From: a virus
Strand: one strand, 5' to 3'
IMG/VR virus record: IMGVR_UViG_3300017917_000670
Coordinates: 1-30,158 of that record
DNA length: 30,158 nt
The position numbers and the translations under genes were made by a program. Below, piece after piece: positions 21,370 to 26,496 of the stretch (position 1 is the first letter of the stretch; every line of letters starts with the position of its first letter). The notes under the pieces were generated by a model. That model made no database searches. It was given only the letters and a program-made list of their open reading frames with translations, and was not told the origin of the DNA.

Positions 21370-21750
21370 ATGATACACAACGAATTTTTTAAGAAATTAA
21401 GTGAAAACCACCCGTTTATAACGATATGTTCACACTCAAATCAGGACTACGTCGGAATAGTACAGAACAGGGATGATGTTGTCACTACTATATATGATTA
21501 CGGGGCTATAGTAGACCCTTTAATTAAAGAAAAATTCCTAGAACTAGGAGATATTTGGTGGTGGGAAAGCAATAGGCTTATCCCCATAAACCTATTTTTG
21601 AAAGATGAATGGACTATTTTTAAGCCCTATTTAAGAACTTTCAACAATAAAAGTCTTACTATTATTCACGGTCCTATTTGTAGTATTAGTGAATTAAACA
21701 AACGTAGGACTAAACGCAAGAGTATCACATTAGTTAAGAGGATGCCGTAA
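21370..21750 (+). CDS. Conserved small phage protein, VGIVQNRDD / WWWESNR
   Basis: 126 residues from ATG 21370; a frame extended to 21328 would run through the late motif and is rejected. Characteristic segments are QDYVGIVQNRDDVVTTIYDY, then LGDIWWWESNRLIPINLFLK, ending in a strongly basic NKRRTKRKSITLVKRMP. The basic tail suggests nucleic-acid contact. The triple Trp segment recalls a protein type seen in several T4-like marine phages, function unknown. It is the only plus-strand gene in an otherwise minus-strand half and carries its own late motif (21343-21350). Its end overlaps the DnaE-like gene tail-to-tail by 17 bases. No terminator hairpin is visible there, so antisense transcription into that gene is possible. 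Confidence 0.75.
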   Translation: MIHNEFFKKLSENHPFITICSHSNQDYVGIVQNRDDVVTTIYDYGAIVDPLIKEKFLELGDIWWWESNRLIPINLFLKDEWTIFKPYLRTFNNKSLTIIHGPICSISELNKRRTKRKSITLVKRMP

Positions 21751-22306
21751 GTAGATTCATATGCACAACGACCAATTGTGCATAAGCTATTGCGTGACTT
21801 TTCTTAAAACTATATCCATCGCTGCCCTTATCCCAAATAGTCTTTGTAACTTCGCGCCAGGGCAATCCAATTAAATGCTTTTTAGCTGGGCGAATAGCAG
21901 CTAAGAACATTGCTAGTCTGGGGATACTATCAATGGGTTCAGGCATTTTCTGTATAGAATTGTAATGATTCGCTAAGTGAATCAATTTCTCAACAAATTC
22001 TTTATCATTCAACTTAGACCAGTCAGGTTGTCGCATTAATTCTACTAGATGTTCTTCACTCTTTACTTGCTCATAGACATGAACATTAAGTAAGTCTAGT
22101 TTGAAGTATCCGCGCTTTTCAGCGTCAGTGTAATCAATGCTAGCCATGTCATTGACAGGATCATATGGAATGTCTGTAACGTAAACACCAGTGTTATGTT
22201 TACGCATAGGATTAACATTACGCATAGCCGCGGATGTATGAGTAATAAGTTTCAATAGTTTATCTCTATCACCAAAGTCAATATCAATATCTGAATCAAT
22301 TCTCAT
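21734..22306 (-). CDS. Miniature DNA polymerase III alpha (DnaE)-like protein
   Basis: 190 residues, against roughly 1,100 for DnaE. The start RIDSDIDIDFGDRDKLLKLI (Asp6, Asp8, Asp10) copies the DnaE palm motif PDxDxDF, which holds two catalytic metal ligands, and GYSFKKSHAIAYAQLVVVHM (164-183) copies the DnaE YxFNKSHAxAYA segment. Between them are KHNTGVYVTDIP and AEKRGYFKLDLLNV. Absent are the PHP domain, most of the palm and fingers, and the beta-binding part. Such short forms occur in T4-like aquatic phages; a polymerase cannot be made from it alone. It overlaps the DEDDh exonuclease by ATGA (22303-22306). Role unknown: perhaps a modulator or a DNA-end-binding subunit. Similarity is seen directly; function is open. 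Confidence 0.7.
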   Translation of the reverse strand: MRIDSDIDIDFGDRDKLLKLITHTSAAMRNVNPMRKHNTGVYVTDIPYDPVNDMASIDYTDAEKRGYFKLDLLNVHVYEQVKSEEHLVELMRQPDWSKLNDKEFVEKLIHLANHYNSIQKMPEPIDSIPRLAMFLAAIRPAKKHLIGLPWREVTKTIWDKGSDGYSFKKSHAIAYAQLVVVHMNLLTASS

Positions 22307-22863
22307 CGCGGTTCTGCCAGTCCTGCTTTCATTAATTTTATATACGCTTGTTGCACAACAATTGCTTGTCGTTCGGCATCTTCTACAGCCTTGTGACTTG
22401 TAACGTGTCCACCGTCTTTGAGTTTAACTCCTGCGATTTCCCACAGTGTTCTTGTGTCTCGCATTGTCCAGAAAGGCCAGGGTATAGGGTTAGGCTTGTC
22501 GCTTGTTTGTCGCCATGCATGTTCCATGACGACCAAATCGAAGGGAGCACCATTGCTCCACACAGCACGACGGTTCCAACAAAACTTGTATAGGATCTCC
22601 ATACACTCTGCAAACGGGATACGTCCATCTTCGCTAAATGCTTCTTCAAGTGCTGCAGGATTTTGTTCACTCCACCATCTGAGTGTATCTTCATTAATGC
22701 TCCTATTATATATCTCTGTTTGATCCTCAACAGTAGGTTTAAGTTCTAATCGCTCGACAACGCCGTTGCCGCGAGGATCAAATCTAACCGCCCCAATAGA
22801 TAGAATAACACAATTAGGTGTTGTGTCTAAACTCTCAATATCTATCATTACATCATTTGCCAT
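22303..22863 (-). CDS. DEDDh 3'-5' exonuclease (DexA/Rv2179c/DnaQ-like)
   Basis: 186 residues with all DEDDh ligands: Asp8 and Glu10 in MIDIESLD, Asp109 in SNGAPFDLVVME, His157 and Asp162 in SHKAVEDAERQA. The fold includes TPNCVILSIGAVRFDP, common to phage DexA and the Rv2179c-like RNases. It removes nucleotides from 3' ends of single-stranded DNA or RNA; which of the two cannot be told from the sequence. Size fits (T4 DexA is 227). It begins one base after the LRW-array gene at 22865 and overlaps the miniature DnaE-like gene, recalling the alpha-epsilon pairing of bacterial polymerase III. Confidence 0.88.
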   Translation of the reverse strand: MANDVMIDIESLDTTPNCVILSIGAVRFDPRGNGVVERLELKPTVEDQTEIYNRSINEDTLRWWSEQNPAALEEAFSEDGRIPFAECMEILYKFCWNRRAVWSNGAPFDLVVMEHAWRQTSDKPNPIPWPFWTMRDTRTLWEIAGVKLKDGGHVTSHKAVEDAERQAIVVQQAYIKLMKAGLAEPR

Positions 22864-22864
22864 G

Positions 22865-23152
22865 TTATTCCATTAGTTTATAGTGAATATAGATTTTCTC
22901 GTTCATAATTACTTCACCATGTGTATACCACCATGTATCACTATATCTTCTTTCGCCATAATGTTTTTTACACCAATCAATTGCTTGATTCATGTCACTG
23001 GTTCTTACTTTTGTAATAGCATAGAATACACGATCCTCCCACCCATTGTCAACTGGAACGGTCTTTTTGAATGTCCGAAAGTATATTGGTTCTATAGGGT
23101 CGTATCGCAAATCTTGTGCGAGTGTCCCATTTATACCTGTAGCAATTGCCAT
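22865..23152 (-). CDS. Small array protein 11 (last of the LRW array)
   Basis: 95 residues from ATG 23152, backed by a GAAGGGAA site eight bases upstream; a longer frame from 23173 is less likely. The start codon is formed from A plus the TGG of the Trp codon near the end of the gene before it, 22 bases of overlap. The core DMNQAIDWCKKHYGERRYSD and the WWYTHGEVIMN-YIHYKL ending correspond to the array pattern xxWCxxxxG...W...x-strand-helix, but the final LRW is replaced by KLME. No known domain. Soluble, mixed charge. Function unknown; see the array entry. Confidence 0.7.
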   Translation of the reverse strand: MAIATGINGTLAQDLRYDPIEPIYFRTFKKTVPVDNGWEDRVFYAITKVRTSDMNQAIDWCKKHYGERRYSDTWWYTHGEVIMNEKIYIHYKLME

Positions 23153-23475
23153 ATATACTTCCCTTCTAACCAATTGAAAAACTTATCTGCGTCAATTTTG
23201 TCTCTATATGCAACACCTTTGATTGTATACATGTCTTGTAAGTAATTACCGTATTCATTATCGGTCATCATCATTACAGTAGTGTTGACCCACATTATAT
23301 CATATTCTTTGTTGTTCAGTTCCAACACAAATCCAACTTCAAATGCGTCTGTGTTTTTGAACGCGGCTTCCATAAGTTTGATTTTATAAATCTTTTGCCT
23401 GATATCTTCCATATTAGGCCAAGTTACAGTTACAAACCTGTCGTATTGTGTGATTCTGAATGGATGGTCTATCAT
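23131..23475 (-). CDS. Small array protein 10 (divergent member)
   Basis: 114 residues. Does not show the array pattern clearly: MIDHPFRITQYDRFVTVTWP, helix RQKIYKIKLMEAAFKNTDA, strands VGFVLELNNKEYDIMWVN and an acidic MTDNEYGNYLQD, ending KFFNWLEGKYIWQLLQV. A Trp-rich end remains. It may be unrelated to the others or much diverged. Starts with ATGA overlap with the gene upstream and its Trp codon near the end supplies the start codon of the next gene. No known family. Confidence 0.6.
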   Translation of the reverse strand: MIDHPFRITQYDRFVTVTWPNMEDIRQKIYKIKLMEAAFKNTDAFEVGFVLELNNKEYDIMWVNTTVMMMTDNEYGNYLQDMYTIKGVAYRDKIDADKFFNWLEGKYIWQLLQV

Positions 23476-23750
23476 TGATATTTTAATAAAAATATAAGGT
23501 ACTTCTTTTCGTCCATGACTTTATACCCATCAGTAATATTGCCATCGACTATGTTCATTTTGATTCCGTAATTCGCTTCTATGTAATCTTCAAAATCATA
23601 CGCATCAAATTGACCATTTAAATTAGACACATCTTCCATGTATTCTTTACGAATCTTTTTTAATGCTGCCCAATAGTCCCAGCGTTTCCTTCGCTGTTCT
23701 ATATTAGGATCATCGTCATCGTAATCTTGTATTGGCGGGATAGTTGTCAT
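23472..23750 (-). CDS. Small array protein 9
   Basis: 92 residues, with an acidic N-terminus (IQDYDDDDPNIEQRR), a helix WDYWAALKKIRKEYMEDVSN, FEDYIEANYGIKMNIVDG as the central helix-strand, and the ending DEKKYLIFLLKYQ, which keeps the array's terminal helix (usually D-E-x-D-A-x-x-F-x-L-R-W) in a changed form. Both ends overlap neighbours by ATGA. No known domain. Confidence 0.65.
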   Translation of the reverse strand: MTTIPPIQDYDDDDPNIEQRRKRWDYWAALKKIRKEYMEDVSNLNGQFDAYDFEDYIEANYGIKMNIVDGNITDGYKVMDEKKYLIFLLKYQ

Positions 23751-23968
23751 TGCGGAAACATCAGTGTAAAATATGTAGCGTATCGGTCATCTTCAAACGT
23801 AAGAGTCCAATGTCTGTTAACCATGCCAGCAGACCAATCATACTTAGCTATCCAACCTTGTCCACCTATACTATTATGTAGGTGATGCATCCTAGGCCCT
23901 ATGTTCTTCATAAGCCATTGTTCTTGCTCACCGTTTAATCCGTTCTTAAGGTTTATAGTTATTGTCAT
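23747..23968 (-). CDS. Small array protein 8
   Basis: 73 residues: strand MTITINLKNG, helix GEQEQWLMKNIGPRMHHLHN, strand-rich WIAKYDWSAGMVNRHWTLTF and final helix EDDRYATYFTLMFPQ. The last part keeps the F-x-x-D-x-x-x-x-F-x-L form of the array motif with MF in place of RW. Overlaps the upstream gene by 23 bases and the downstream gene by ATGA. No known family. Confidence 0.7.
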   Translation of the reverse strand: MTITINLKNGLNGEQEQWLMKNIGPRMHHLHNSIGGQGWIAKYDWSAGMVNRHWTLTFEDDRYATYFTLMFPQ

Positions 23969-24272
23969 AAACTAATAAATCAAATACCGTAGCGTATTGA
24001 ACTTCTGGTTCCATGTGAAAGCCTGTACCCCACACAACCCATACTTTACGCTTGTATGCTTTTTCCCACCATATGAGTTTACCTGTCACTGTCTTTCGTG
24101 GAAAGATAGCAAAGAATTCATGCCATGGATAGCAATCCGCTCCGTTTTCAATAATAGTATAATCCAATTTTTTATCCTTGTCACCCCAGCGCAAATAATA
24201 GTGACCGTCTTTGCCACGGAACACATCGTTTTCTAAATTCCAATTTAAACTTCTATTCCAATTTATAGCCAT
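23946..24272 (-). CDS. Small array protein 7
   Basis: 108 residues from ATG 24272, which is formed inside the Arg-Trp codons (CGATGG) of the preceding gene with 10 bases of overlap; an upstream GTG at 24287 is less likely. Aromatic-rich: MAINWNRSLNWNLENDV, GHYYLRWGDKDKKLDY, CYPWHEFFAIFPRK, KLIWWEKAYKRKVWVVWG. It ends EVQYATVFDLLVYDN, which looks like a changed form of the array's terminal helix. Eleven Trp in 108 residues is very high. Function unknown. Confidence 0.65.
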   Translation of the reverse strand: MAINWNRSLNWNLENDVFRGKDGHYYLRWGDKDKKLDYTIIENGADCYPWHEFFAIFPRKTVTGKLIWWEKAYKRKVWVVWGTGFHMEPEVQYATVFDLLVYDNNYKP

Positions 24273-24535
24273 CGCAATATAAACCACTCAGCATCTTTTT
24301 TCTTGCGGAAGACAAAATAACTGTTCAGTCGCATCCATTGATTTTCTTTTACGTTATTTCCGATCCACTCTAAAACATCGACAGCATGTTTAGTTCCTGT
24401 ATAGTAGAATTCAATCTCTGTCCAGCCGCCTTCAACTAAACAGGAACGCAAAACATCGTGGTCAATACTTTTTTCCATTTCTTCAAGTTTTTCTTGGAGT
24501 ATCGTATCTATCAATGGTATATCAGACTGAACCAT
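24263..24535 (-). CDS. Small array protein 6, typical LRW ending
   Basis: 90 residues from ATG 24535; this ATG is formed from the Thr-Trp codons ACATGG of the preceding gene. N-terminus is a long helix (DTILQEKLEEMEKSIDHDVL), then GGWTEIEFYYTG, AVDVLEWIGNNVKENQWMRL and the ending YFVFRKKKDAEWFILRWL, a full array motif: strand, charged turn, D-A, F-x-L-R-W. Overlaps the next gene by 10 bases in the RW codons. No known family. Confidence 0.75.
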   Translation of the reverse strand: MVQSDIPLIDTILQEKLEEMEKSIDHDVLRSCLVEGGWTEIEFYYTGTKHAVDVLEWIGNNVKENQWMRLNSYFVFRKKKDAEWFILRWL

Positions 24536-24735
24536 GTTGCTAATTCTTCTCTGTAAAAGGTAAATGTTACACATCTATTATACACAGCATCACCTGAAAA
24601 ATCATTGTATTTGGGTGGTTGGTAGGCAAAGTCAAAGTCTACACCTTGAACATAACCCTTATTTTTAAGTTCTTTTACAATCTCCAAAAAATCATTGGGC
24701 ATTTTATCGATTAGTTTAACTTCAATCAACTCCAC
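24511..24735 (-). CDS. Small array protein 5
   Basis: 74 residues. Start is GTG 24735, inside the Arg-Trp codons AGGTGG of the gene before, or TTG 24729 giving a TTGA overlap; GAGG in that motif lies five bases before the TTG. Core: helix LEIVKELKNKGYVQGVDFDF, ending CVTFTFYREELATWFSLIYH, which fits the array's last strand and helix with LIY for LRW. No known family. Confidence 0.7.
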   Translation of the reverse strand: MELIEVKLIDKMPNDFLEIVKELKNKGYVQGVDFDFAYQPPKYNDFSGDAVYNRCVTFTFYREELATWFSLIYH

Positions 24736-24953
24736 CTCAACGTAAACAAAACAGCATCAGCTTCATTTCTAAAACTAAATCTATATTTTCCAGCATTGGG
24801 GCCTCTGAAACCTGCCCAAAAGCAACACCATATACCTTTTTTATTATCAATTGCACCCCAACGCTTACCCCAATGTTCTCTACACCATTGTTCTGCGTCA
24901 CGGTGATTTTCTTTACTTATTAAAACATCGTATGGCAATTGAGTCATCTCCAC
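24726..24953 (-). CDS. Small array protein 4, typical LRW ending
   Basis: 75 residues from GTG 24953, or 73 from ATG 24947 (ATGA overlap, with GAGG five bases upstream). It shows the array pattern best: HRDAEQWCREHWGKRWGAID, KGIWCCFWAGF, then YRFSFRNEADAVLFTLRWS. The W-C pair, the Gly after the helix and the terminal D-A-x-x-F-x-L-R-W recur in neighbouring genes. Probably a compact alpha-beta protein. Function unknown. Confidence 0.75.
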   Translation of the reverse strand: MEMTQLPYDVLISKENHRDAEQWCREHWGKRWGAIDNKKGIWCCFWAGFRGPNAGKYRFSFRNEADAVLFTLRWS

Positions 24954-25183
24954 CTCAACATTGCTACAATATAATCTCGTTCGTATCTAAATTTGATTTT
25001 GATTCCGTTTGTTGTTTCAAACCATCTACAATGTCTTTCGCACTTGCCTATAGTATTATATAACCATTCAATAACTTCACGATAACGTTTTACTTGACCG
25101 TTTAGATTCAACTCAAGTTCATGCCACCCAGGCTTTGTGTCATGCCAAGTAGGACCCTCAAAGTGTATTCTTCTCATGCCCAT
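24944..25183 (-). CDS. Small array protein 3, typical LRW ending
   Basis: 79 residues from ATG 25183 (in the CGATGG of the gene before), or 77 from ATG 25177 (ATGA overlap). Strands GWHELELNLNGQVKRY, helix EVIEWLYNTIGKCERHCRWF, then GIKIKFRYERDYIVAMLRWR, a full terminal motif. Overlaps the next gene by 10 bases if its GTG is used. No known domain. Confidence 0.75.
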   Translation of the reverse strand: MGMRRIHFEGPTWHDTKPGWHELELNLNGQVKRYREVIEWLYNTIGKCERHCRWFETTNGIKIKFRYERDYIVAMLRWR

Positions 25184-25602
25184 CGTAGTAAAAAGTGGGT
25201 AAAATCTTGTTCACGCTTAAACGCAAAGTATATTATATCATATCCTCCTATATCGTTAAACTCCATCTTTCCCCATTGATTCTCATAAACTCTATGTATG
25301 TCACAACGGAAGTTCCATTTTATCTTGTCGTGACACCAGTCATTAATTTCATCATACCCATAAACTTGTCCGCCGGGCCCGTAATCCGCTATAAATTGAT
25401 ATGCAAAATGTGTTGGGTATTTACAAGCATAAACATATGGGTAGCCGGTGTAGAAATCTTCCACATATTGGGCATACTTTGCAACATCAGGATCACGGCT
25501 ATGCTTATAGGCTCTCCATGTCAGATATCCGCTTTTTTTGAGTTTACGCTCGGTGCGCCATTTGCGTAGTCTTGCTTTTATCCTAAAAAGATTCATGTCC
25601 AT
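25174..25602 (-). CDS. Array protein 2, longest member with basic N-terminus
   Basis: 142 residues, about twice the usual array length. A basic N-terminal helix (FRIKARLRKWRTERKLKKSG) precedes an extra aromatic segment (VEDFYTGYPYVYACKYPTHF), and the C-terminal 65 residues carry the array pattern: DEINDWCHDKIKWNFRCDIH, then YDIIYFAFKREQDFTHFLLR and Trp-Ala. So it looks like an array domain with a fused N-terminal piece. Start is ATG 25602, inside CGATGG of the gene before, or ATG 25596 (ATGA overlap). Confidence 0.75.
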   Translation of the reverse strand: MDMNLFRIKARLRKWRTERKLKKSGYLTWRAYKHSRDPDVAKYAQYVEDFYTGYPYVYACKYPTHFAYQFIADYGPGGQVYGYDEINDWCHDKIKWNFRCDIHRVYENQWGKMEFNDIGGYDIIYFAFKREQDFTHFLLRWA

Positions 25603-25793
25603 CGTAACATAAAATGTATAGCATCTTTTTCATCATAAAAATCAAACTCCATATATTCGCTCGTAGGATGCCAAATGAATTTATTACCCGGTAATCCAAA
25701 CTGTTCTATAGTCCAAGCACATATTTCATTCCACGATGGAATATCATCACGATCCTCACGCCACTCTAGTATGACTTTAGTAACCGGCTGCAC
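25593..25793 (-). CDS. Small array protein 1 (first of the array), LRW ending
   Basis: 66 residues from GTG 25793, overlapping the Zn-finger gene's end by 17 bases. Strand KVILEWREDRDDIPS, helix WNEICAWTIEQFGLPGNKFI, then YMEFDFYDEKDAIHFMLRWT: helix with W-C-like (CAW) element, Trp, strand, D-E-x-D-A-x-x-F-x-L-R-W. This is the shortest and most typical member. No known domain. Confidence 0.75.
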   Translation of the reverse strand: MQPVTKVILEWREDRDDIPSWNEICAWTIEQFGLPGNKFIWHPTSEYMEFDFYDEKDAIHFMLRWT

Positions 25794-26496
25794 TTAGCAA
25801 CTCCTTGACTTCTTTTACTTTGTCAGGCTCACGATGAAATTTTAGTGCCCACTGTTCTGGGTCAATATAATCAATGACCATTTTAACTTGAGTAGGATCT
25901 AAACTTTCCATAAACTCTACACCACTACGACACTGAAATATCATCCATGGACTAATCTTACCAGTAGTAATTGCATGACAAATCTTATTCTTGTTACCAT
26001 AGCGTAGATAATCTTTGCTCTGTATAGTTTCTCTTTCAGCTAATTCAATGGTCGTTTCAACACTGCGGTGTATTGCATCTAGTGGATCTTCTGTTTTGAG
26101 ATATTCAATCAAATACTTGGTATAATTAGAATCTTGTGTCCATGTATCAATTCTAATTTGATTTTTTACCAACCAATCTGCAAATCTGCTCACGTTCAAT
26201 GCGTTAATATCAACACAATAATTACCAAACTTAACAAACGCTGTATAGTATGCTGACTTGATAAAATCTTCGTAGGTCTTTTTCTTTTTATTAGTAGTAT
26301 TCTTTTTGTAAAATTCATTCCATGCTTGGAACGCTATACGATTGCCCTGAAGGTCTTTGTTCATCCAGCGGCGTTTACTCTCACACATGTGAGTCATCAA
26401 TGTAGATTCACGCACAAACTCACCGTTACAAAATTCGCAACGATGTTTCTGTTTAACTGTTTCCTCTATCTCTTTCGTATTCTTTAATTTCTTCAT
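25777..26496 (-). CDS. C2HC zinc-finger protein of T4-like marine phages
   Basis: 239 residues. A zinc finger near the N-terminus has Cys20, Cys23, His36 and Cys38 (HRCEFCNGEFVRE ... MTHMCESKRRW), a compact C2H2-like finger. The rest is helical (YEDFIKSAYYTAFVKFGNYC, FADWLVKNQIRIDTW, KISPWMIFQCRSG, KVKEVKELLSAAGY), and matches in pattern a conserved protein of T4-like cyanophages for which no function is known to me. The finger and the basic helices suggest DNA or RNA binding. Start ATG 26496 overlaps the gp62-like gene by 44 bases; no later in-frame ATG before Cys20 exists. Possible roles in replication or late transcription are inference. Confidence 0.75.
   Translation of the reverse strand: MKKLKNTKEIEETVKQKHRCEFCNGEFVRESTLMTHMCESKRRWMNKDLQGNRIAFQAWNEFYKKNTTNKKKKTYEDFIKSAYYTAFVKFGNYCVDINALNVSRFADWLVKNQIRIDTWTQDSNYTKYLIEYLKTEDPLDAIHRSVETTIELAERETIQSKDYLRYGNKNKICHAITTGKISPWMIFQCRSGVEFMESLDPTQVKMVIDYIDPEQWALKFHREPDKVKEVKELLSAAGY

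Follow-up and report, generated by a model that had tools for sequence, protein, structure and literature searches.

What is assembled in a run of tiny overlapping genes when so many of their products end in the same three residues? The question is raised by a viral fragment of 30,158 bases (IMG/VR record IMGVR_UViG_3300017917_000670), the whole of which is called the window below. At 22865-25793 it carries 11 consecutive open reading frames (ORFs) on the minus strand, which encode proteins of 66 to 142 aa and lie end to end. Five of the 11 proteins, those of genes 1, 2, 3, 4 and 6, end in leucine-arginine-tryptophan (LRW). Most of these one-gene cassettes are best explained as belonging to a superfamily of beta-alpha-beta-beta-alpha mini-proteins that is new and diverges fast. 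It is very probable that their shared end is at the same time the start signal of the next gene and the joint between cassettes, and that a single superfamily supplies most of the members. The genes, their seams and the two neighbours that bound the array are as follows.

25777..26496, minus strand: conserved upstream neighbour, here called the anchor; phrog_11058, unknown function (PHROG match 2.2e-58)
25593..25793, minus strand: array gene 1, 66 aa, superfamily member by profile comparison, C-terminus DAIHFMLRWT
25593..25607, minus strand: seam 1/2, type B, TTA CGA TGG ACA TGA; gene 2 takes its ATG from the A|TG of the R|W codons
25174..25602, minus strand: array gene 2, 142 aa, superfamily domain C-terminal by profile comparison, ends DFTHFLLRWA
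25174..25188, minus strand: seam 2/3, type B, CTA CGA TGG GCA TGA
24944..25183, minus strand: array gene 3, 79 aa, superfamily member by profile comparison, ends DYIVAMLRWR
24944..24958, minus strand: seam 3/4, type A, TTG AGG TGG AGA TGA; Shine–Dalgarno GAGGTG 5 nucleotides (aligned spacing) before the ATG at 24947
24726..24947, minus strand: array gene 4, 73 aa from the ATG, superfamily member, predicted beta-alpha-beta-beta-alpha fold, predicted local distance difference test (pLDDT) 92
24726..24740, minus strand: seam 4/5, type A, TTG AGG TGG AGT TGA; likely TTG start at 24732
24511..24732, minus strand: array gene 5, about 72 aa, probable member with similarity confined to the last 22 residues, ends WFSLIYH
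24263..24535, minus strand: array gene 6, 90 aa, superfamily member, predicted beta-alpha-beta-beta-alpha core with a helical N-terminal extension
24263..24277, minus strand: seam 6/7, type B, TTG CGA TGG CTA TAA; start ATG at 24272
23946..24272, minus strand: array gene 7, 108 aa, without detectable superfamily relation (0.2% probability)
23747..23968, minus strand: array gene 8, 73 aa, probable member by profile comparison, ends YFTLMFPQ
23472..23750, minus strand: array gene 9, 92 aa, weak possible member by profile comparison
23131..23475, minus strand: array gene 10, 114 aa, membership unsupported (14.5%)
22865..23152, minus strand: array gene 11, 95 aa from the ATG, possible member via its WC helix (profile comparison)
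22303..22863, minus strand: downstream neighbour, a conserved exonuclease (phrog_255; Pfam Rv2179c-like) forming the right boundary of the array

A preliminary description of this DNA had claimed a tandem array of eleven tiny overlapping genes, and this holds: every neighbouring pair overlaps by 4 to 25 bases once the start codons are placed in accordance with relatives. Both start codons and gene calls are predicted, and the comparison with relatives gave better starts at 24947 (gene 4), 24535 (gene 6), 24272 (gene 7) and 23152 (gene 11). The LRW-type ending was found in five of the 151 window ORFs of at least 40 aa, all five inside the array. When residues were shuffled within the 11 proteins, a maximum of two such endings appeared in 200,000 trials, with a mean of 0.004. 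The description had given all five ends the form D-[AFY]-x-x-F-x-L-R-W; four fit it exactly, while the gene at 24944 reads DYIVAMLRW, with A in place of F.

The codons behind this ending are far from ordinary. The arginine of LRW is encoded by AGG in 59.5% of cases (n = 205), against 8.6% of other arginines (n = 1920), and the leucine by TTG in 51.5% against 20.1% elsewhere. Two types of junction can be distinguished. At type A the bases run TTG-AGG-TGG-NNA-TGA, in which GAGGTGG is the Shine–Dalgarno (SD) sequence of the next gene and pairs with the 16S rRNA tail, and the stop shares 4 bases (or 1) with the ATG of that gene; after AGG, stop/start overlaps of 4 or 1 bases are seen in 102 of 112 cases. 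At type B the codon for R or K has A as its last base, and the following gene starts with the A|TG(G) that spans the R-W codons, an overlap of 10; after such codons this is mostly where the next gene begins (58 overlaps of 10 bases). For type A junctions an anti-SD pairing of -9.4 kcal/mol is predicted, compared with -3.9 when the last codons are synonymously recoded (n = 113, p = 1.6e-19), and at type B junctions no excess over synonymous recoding was found. In the window, type B junctions follow genes 1, 2 and 6, and type A junctions follow genes 3 and 4.

The cultured Sinorhizobium phage Phosso allows the protein and DNA components of the ending to be separated. R80 is conserved in 76% and W81 in 92% of the array proteins, whereas in the Phosso relatives the values are 33% and 51% (R33/T23/A21 at the first position and W51/F27 at the second). 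In the same relatives F68 (98%), F77 (98%) and L79 (90%) are retained. Since R-W drifts in Phosso while F, F and L stay, D-A-x-x-F-x-L can be assigned to the protein, and it is the junction that fixes R-W. LKW variants lose the SD sequence yet retain the protein pattern. Judging by these codons and alignments, LRW appears to be mostly a DNA signal read in frame, its R-W part being a translation-start signal. The LRW end as a shared protein motif thus survives in its F and L positions, whereas its R-W part is accounted for by the start signal, to which codon bias, anti-SD pairing and the Phosso drift all point. A translation signal that freezes part of a protein motif is a trap when a conserved tail is taken as a functional motif. 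A non-member family of small proteins (MRVSIWYRTELQQP...) also recurs in arrays with the same junctions (L012:9686-10036 and L030:10061-10414 in our numbering of the compared loci), so the seam is able to join unrelated genes too.

Beneath the signal, a relationship between the proteins can be detected. Pairwise HHalign probabilities among the families of genes 1, 2, 3, 4 and 6 are 90-96%, and those of control families about 0-1%. When the last 10 residues are removed, the direct family matches left are 3-6 (70%), 4-11 (45%), 2-6 (42%) and 8-11 (34%). Gene 2 matches profile A3, which includes no member of the gene 2 family, at 98.3%, and trimming off its last 10 residues still leaves 95.4%; for genes 1, 3, 4 and 6 the A3 scores are partly circular, since the profile includes their families. 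For the remaining genes the full-length and trimmed A3 scores are 93.5% and 0.5% (gene 5), 95.8% and 27% (gene 8), 61% and 2% (gene 9), and 81% and 58% (gene 11). Iterative searches with trimmed sequences join gene 3 with gene 6, and gene 4 with genes 8 and 11, with no match among 1,383 decoys. The superfamily traits, as defined from the arrays, are F-x-F, D-A-x-x-F-x-L near the C-terminus, an upstream W-[CLI] helix and detectability by profile; genes 1, 2, 3, 4 and 6 show them, genes 5 and 8 probably do, genes 9 and 11 show them weakly, and genes 7 and 10 do not.

We conclude that genes 1-4 and 6 share common descent, in agreement with the paralogy proposed in the preliminary description. Genes 5 and 8 are probable and genes 9 and 11 possible members of the superfamily. 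Four further genes had been said to keep a weaker version of the motif: those at 24511 and 23747 are indeed related by profile comparison and that at 23472 weakly so, while the gene at 23946 is not. About 65% of 444 distinct small array proteins end in a recognisable form of the motif. Scans against Pfam, PHROGs, NCBIfam and PADLOC gave no significant match common to the members, only scattered weak hits of one or two proteins each, and the best hit of a PDB sequence search (E 0.17, TPR proteins) was unconvincing. The DNA signature TTGAGGTGGNNATGA at the ends of small ORFs gathers hundreds of unannotated small phage proteins into one superfamily without a Pfam or PHROGs match.

Three-dimensional models constructed using AlphaFold cover genes 4 and 6, both from divergent MAFFT alignments of the mixed family. 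Gene 4 is predicted as beta-alpha-beta-beta-alpha (pLDDT 92, predicted template modelling score 0.79), and gene 6 has the same core at pLDDT of about 86-91, preceded by an N-terminal helical extension; the order of elements is identical, as the proposed paralogy would lead one to expect. A Foldseek search of the PDB revealed nothing significant (no match with E below 0.7), and matches in BFVD are limited to uncharacterised proteins of uncultured phages. The models do not match the full ferredoxin-like or RRM fold, given the missing last strand and the lack of a PDB match below that E value.

The anchor is present on 387 IMG/VR viral contigs, of which the closest 80 were fetched; many of these loci are fragments, some are the same phage assembled twice, and their genes were called by a custom script. 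Its cultured carriers are jumbo phages: Sinorhizobium phage Phosso, Salicola phage SCTP-2, Pseudomonas phage PA5oct, and Escherichia phage 121Q and its kin. In 121Q, PA5oct, SCTP-2 and Phosso the equivalent neighbourhood lacks a long array. Profile A2, built from arrays only, nevertheless matches 32 places in Phosso, a phage independent of the arrays, and three in PA5oct, which favours the claimed paralogy; it finds no relatives in 121Q or SCTP-2. Homologues are also present among the genes of Atu_ph07. The relatives in Phosso (PV764938.1; L108 1-16000 and other segments) amount to 43, are dispersed, and mostly end in F-K-L-[RTA]-[WF]; the lysine before L is 88% conserved among them and variable in arrays. 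Relatives in marine T4-like phages had also been suggested, but profile A3 matches none in P-SSM2, S-PM2 or HTVC008M, nor in T4. In the window a short stand-alone DnaE-like polymerase III alpha fragment (21734-22306) adjoins the exonuclease, and Phosso has one at the equivalent place. Farther away, the window encodes an Fe-S cluster biosynthesis protein (PF01521, 12898-13227).

A blind scan of IMG/VR for the 16-base junction pattern TTTNNNTTGAGGTGGNNATGA gave at least 176 matches and at least 117 new loci. Among the matches listed, 152 of 176 end an ORF that matches the family profile, and the anchor, the exonuclease or a DnaE-like gene lies nearby in only 39 of 99 positive loci, so that arrays are also located elsewhere. 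The anchor gene, at 38-63% identity, was found in seven of twelve such contigs, including all four of more than 200 kb with family members; the arrays thus belong largely to one jumbo-phage clade. Searches of bacterial and archaeal genomes revealed neither a match to a longer junction pattern nor a relative of the anchor, and accordingly no host was identified. With cultured carriers at hand (Phosso on Sinorhizobium, PA5oct on Pseudomonas), the function of the arrays is testable.

Between phages the content of the arrays changes greatly. In 45 complete loci the stretch from anchor to exonuclease ranges from 280 to 6,191 bp and from 1 to 22 genes, and with families linked at 75% identity or above, 22 distinct differences of the A-B-C versus A-C kind were counted. 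Where the flanks can be aligned, identity switches inside the shared end: the DNA of L037 and L055 agrees up to GAATGGTTTATGCTTAGATGGCAATGAT and then continues into another cassette. Exchanges in register were found in L037/L055, L037/L040, L019/L030, L069/L026 and L012/L019, and between genes 2 and 3 of the window relatives hold one, two or three extra cassettes. For 89% of the array members BLAST detects no full-length paralogue within the same array, and no pair within an array exceeds 50% identity, while 57% of array genes match a gene of another array at 70% identity or more. The arrays are therefore composed of distinct cassettes shared among phages rather than of fresh duplicates; the same two percentages lead us to reject recent tandem duplication. 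The look of recently duplicated genes, read earlier from this DNA, does not stand up, the closest relatives being in other phages. Neither does diversifying (positive) selection: the median ratio of nonsynonymous to synonymous substitution rates (dN/dS) is 0.19 and no pair lies above 1 (556 pairs, with synonymous sites near saturation, the proportion of synonymous differences, pS, being about 0.5). By this measure the array proteins are under purifying selection.

Larger passenger genes can also be noted in the arrays: radical SAM and B12-binding radical SAM enzymes, PhyH-type oxygenases, methyltransferases and a ROK-family protein (L028:6043-10838, L021:8901-9611, L060:2492-3881, L019:14033-14866 and L066:11483-12430, the last a radical SAM look-alike by eye). 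GIY-YIG-like genes, also recognised by eye, flank some arrays (L177:3005-3565, L200:7058-7723 and L073:8708-9421; Pfam gave no match for the L073 gene), and an endonuclease VII gene lies within another (L042:9501-9899). Homing endonucleases were considered as drivers of the exchange and not adopted: such genes lie in or beside some arrays, and most passengers are other enzymes.

By sequence, each cassette is one tiny gene whose F-x-L-R-W-x-stop end also contains the signals that start its follower, either an SD sequence with an ATGA overlap of stop and start or a start codon within R-W. With this common end, cassettes can be joined, inserted and lost there while reading and expression stay intact, and related phages do differ by such events. 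On the mechanism that we propose, translation would be coupled gene by gene and the whole set made from one message, with homologous recombination in the 12-30 bp of the shared end doing the shuffling. The products may be accessory proteins that act inside the cell, every one on a different host factor, and most likely serve counter-defence or host takeover; differing host targets would leave each phage with a different, non-redundant subset. The array products are small, non-redundant, quickly exchanged between phages and under purifying selection, which suits accessory proteins directed at host factors.

Two other explanations concern ancestry. The shared end might be merely a translation signal, unrelated tiny genes having gained the same last codons without common protein ancestry. 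The start signal does strongly shape the R-W codons, and the bulk of the direct similarity between families lies within the last 10-20 residues; however, the conservation of F68, D73, F77 and L79 (three of them at 90-98% in Phosso) is not demanded by the signal, the LKW variants keep the protein pattern without an SD sequence, the trimmed profiles still link genes 3 and 6 and genes 4, 8 and 11 while matching none of the 1,383 decoys, and genes 4 and 6 share a predicted fold order. We regard this explanation as very improbable. A mobile C-terminal module is somewhat easier to defend: a strand-helix-LRW end spread by recombination or gene conversion onto varied N-terminal domains would leave the tail shared and the whole fold not. 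The breakpoints of the cassette events fall within the shared end, trimming removes most pairwise similarity, and additional N-terminal segments are present in the 142-aa gene 2 and in the DAWSRW proteins. Against the module, the tryptophan of the helix preceding the middle strand is at least 90% conserved in mixed alignments, and the models of genes 4 and 6 show the same five elements, though both used mixed-family alignments; on this evidence it is unlikely.

Two more explanations leave the superfamily in place and dispute its purpose. The products might be mini-domains, truncated ferredoxin-like or RRM-like, which bind nucleic acid, the ribosome or RNA polymerase for the phage's own gene regulation and not for anti-defence. 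The order of the fold elements recalls a ferredoxin-like domain lacking the final strand, the weak Foldseek hits include PII, RRM and KH domains, and tryptophan makes up 5% of residues, but the PDB offers nothing at E below 0.7, the mean net charge of -1.2 is unlike that of typical RNA binders, and the high turnover between phages disfavours a core regulatory role, so that we find it rather unlikely. Alternatively, the expansion might be selfish or nearly neutral, the seam making insertion harmless so that cassettes pile up and few matter to the phage. An array length of 1 to 22 genes among relatives and the absence of members from the cultured relatives 121Q and SCTP-2 would suit this view, whereas a dN/dS of about 0.19 over 556 pairs and the lack of the near-duplicates within arrays that simple amplification should produce make it distinctly improbable.

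Several points weigh against the cassette array of host-directed proteins that we propose. Most direct similarity between families vanishes without the last 10 residues, and descent of the N-terminal parts rests on intermediates, fold order and Phosso. Genes 7 and 10 gave no membership in the superfamily by profile comparison, and some arrays contain unrelated genes (radical SAM, PhyH, methyltransferase, endonuclease VII, ROK). Coupled translation is a reading of the sequence. No search result assigns a function or a partner to any member or links the array with a host or defence system. Taken whole, the reading as a plug-in cassette array of a jumbo-phage clade, encoding accessory host-takeover or counter-defence proteins, is evenly balanced in our judgement. 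The functional part by itself, a role in counter-defence or host takeover, is offered tentatively, as somewhat less than an even chance; the anti-host or adaptor role suggested in the preliminary description is likewise hypothetical. If the products were counter-defence factors, the arrays would be ready-made catalogues of candidates, one per cassette. A stronger version is more doubtful still, although possible: an integron-like phage platform in which one 15-base in-frame element serves simultaneously as protein tail, ribosome-binding site, beginning of the following gene and recombination joint, and by which the whole clade would gather and swap a non-redundant library of small counter-defence proteins.

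Known systems resemble the arrays in part. The PeMobs of T4-type phages, as reportedly described by Arbiol et al. in 2010, are said to be small accessory genes shuffled modularly via shared early-promoter cassettes. In both cases short conserved regulatory DNA is repeated among small accessory genes and is thought to permit shuffling by homologous recombination, and gene exchange with breakpoints in the shared repeat, as in PeMobs, was found here in the five in-register events. In the present arrays, however, the repeat is a putative translation-start signal inside the coding sequence, is translated as LRW and joins overlapping homologous genes, whereas in PeMobs it is a promoter stem-loop between unrelated genes; no early promoter with a stem-loop occurs between the array genes, whose overlaps of 4-25 bases leave no intergenic space. 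With integron cassettes the arrays share single-gene promoterless cassettes of variable content, which in the arrays too would be read as one message. Unlike in integrons, the joint is coding sequence and the cassettes come mostly from one protein superfamily; there are no attC sites, for which abutting or overlapping genes leave no room, and no integrase among the passengers examined in array loci.

Expansions of small genes are known from other large phages. Bacillus phage G has a lineage-specific expansion of a zinc ribbon to about 35 copies, possibly transcription factors or structural DNA-binding proteins (PMC7824862). Like Phosso with its 43 relatives, it is a jumbo phage with dozens of small paralogues; the domain is another one, and no seam is described there (PMC7824862). 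The ORFanage of S-PM2, a block of ORFans in a large cyanophage that laboratory growth does not require and that may be lost (PMC4503421), may be likened to the arrays, but profile A3 finds no superfamily member in S-PM2. In archaeal viruses, clusters of early genes share regulatory sequence, and several of these genes are anti-defence (PMC11065993). Both there and here small variable genes carry one common regulatory sequence. In the archaeal clusters it is a promoter before each gene, and the shared sequence predicted anti-defence genes, some of which were tested (PMC11065993); in the present arrays it would be an in-frame ribosome-binding site, and the role of the genes is a proposed one. 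The early genes of archaeal viruses (PMC11065993) and the dispensable ORFan blocks of cyanophages (PMC4503421) are the published parallels to the accessory, host-directed role proposed for the array proteins.

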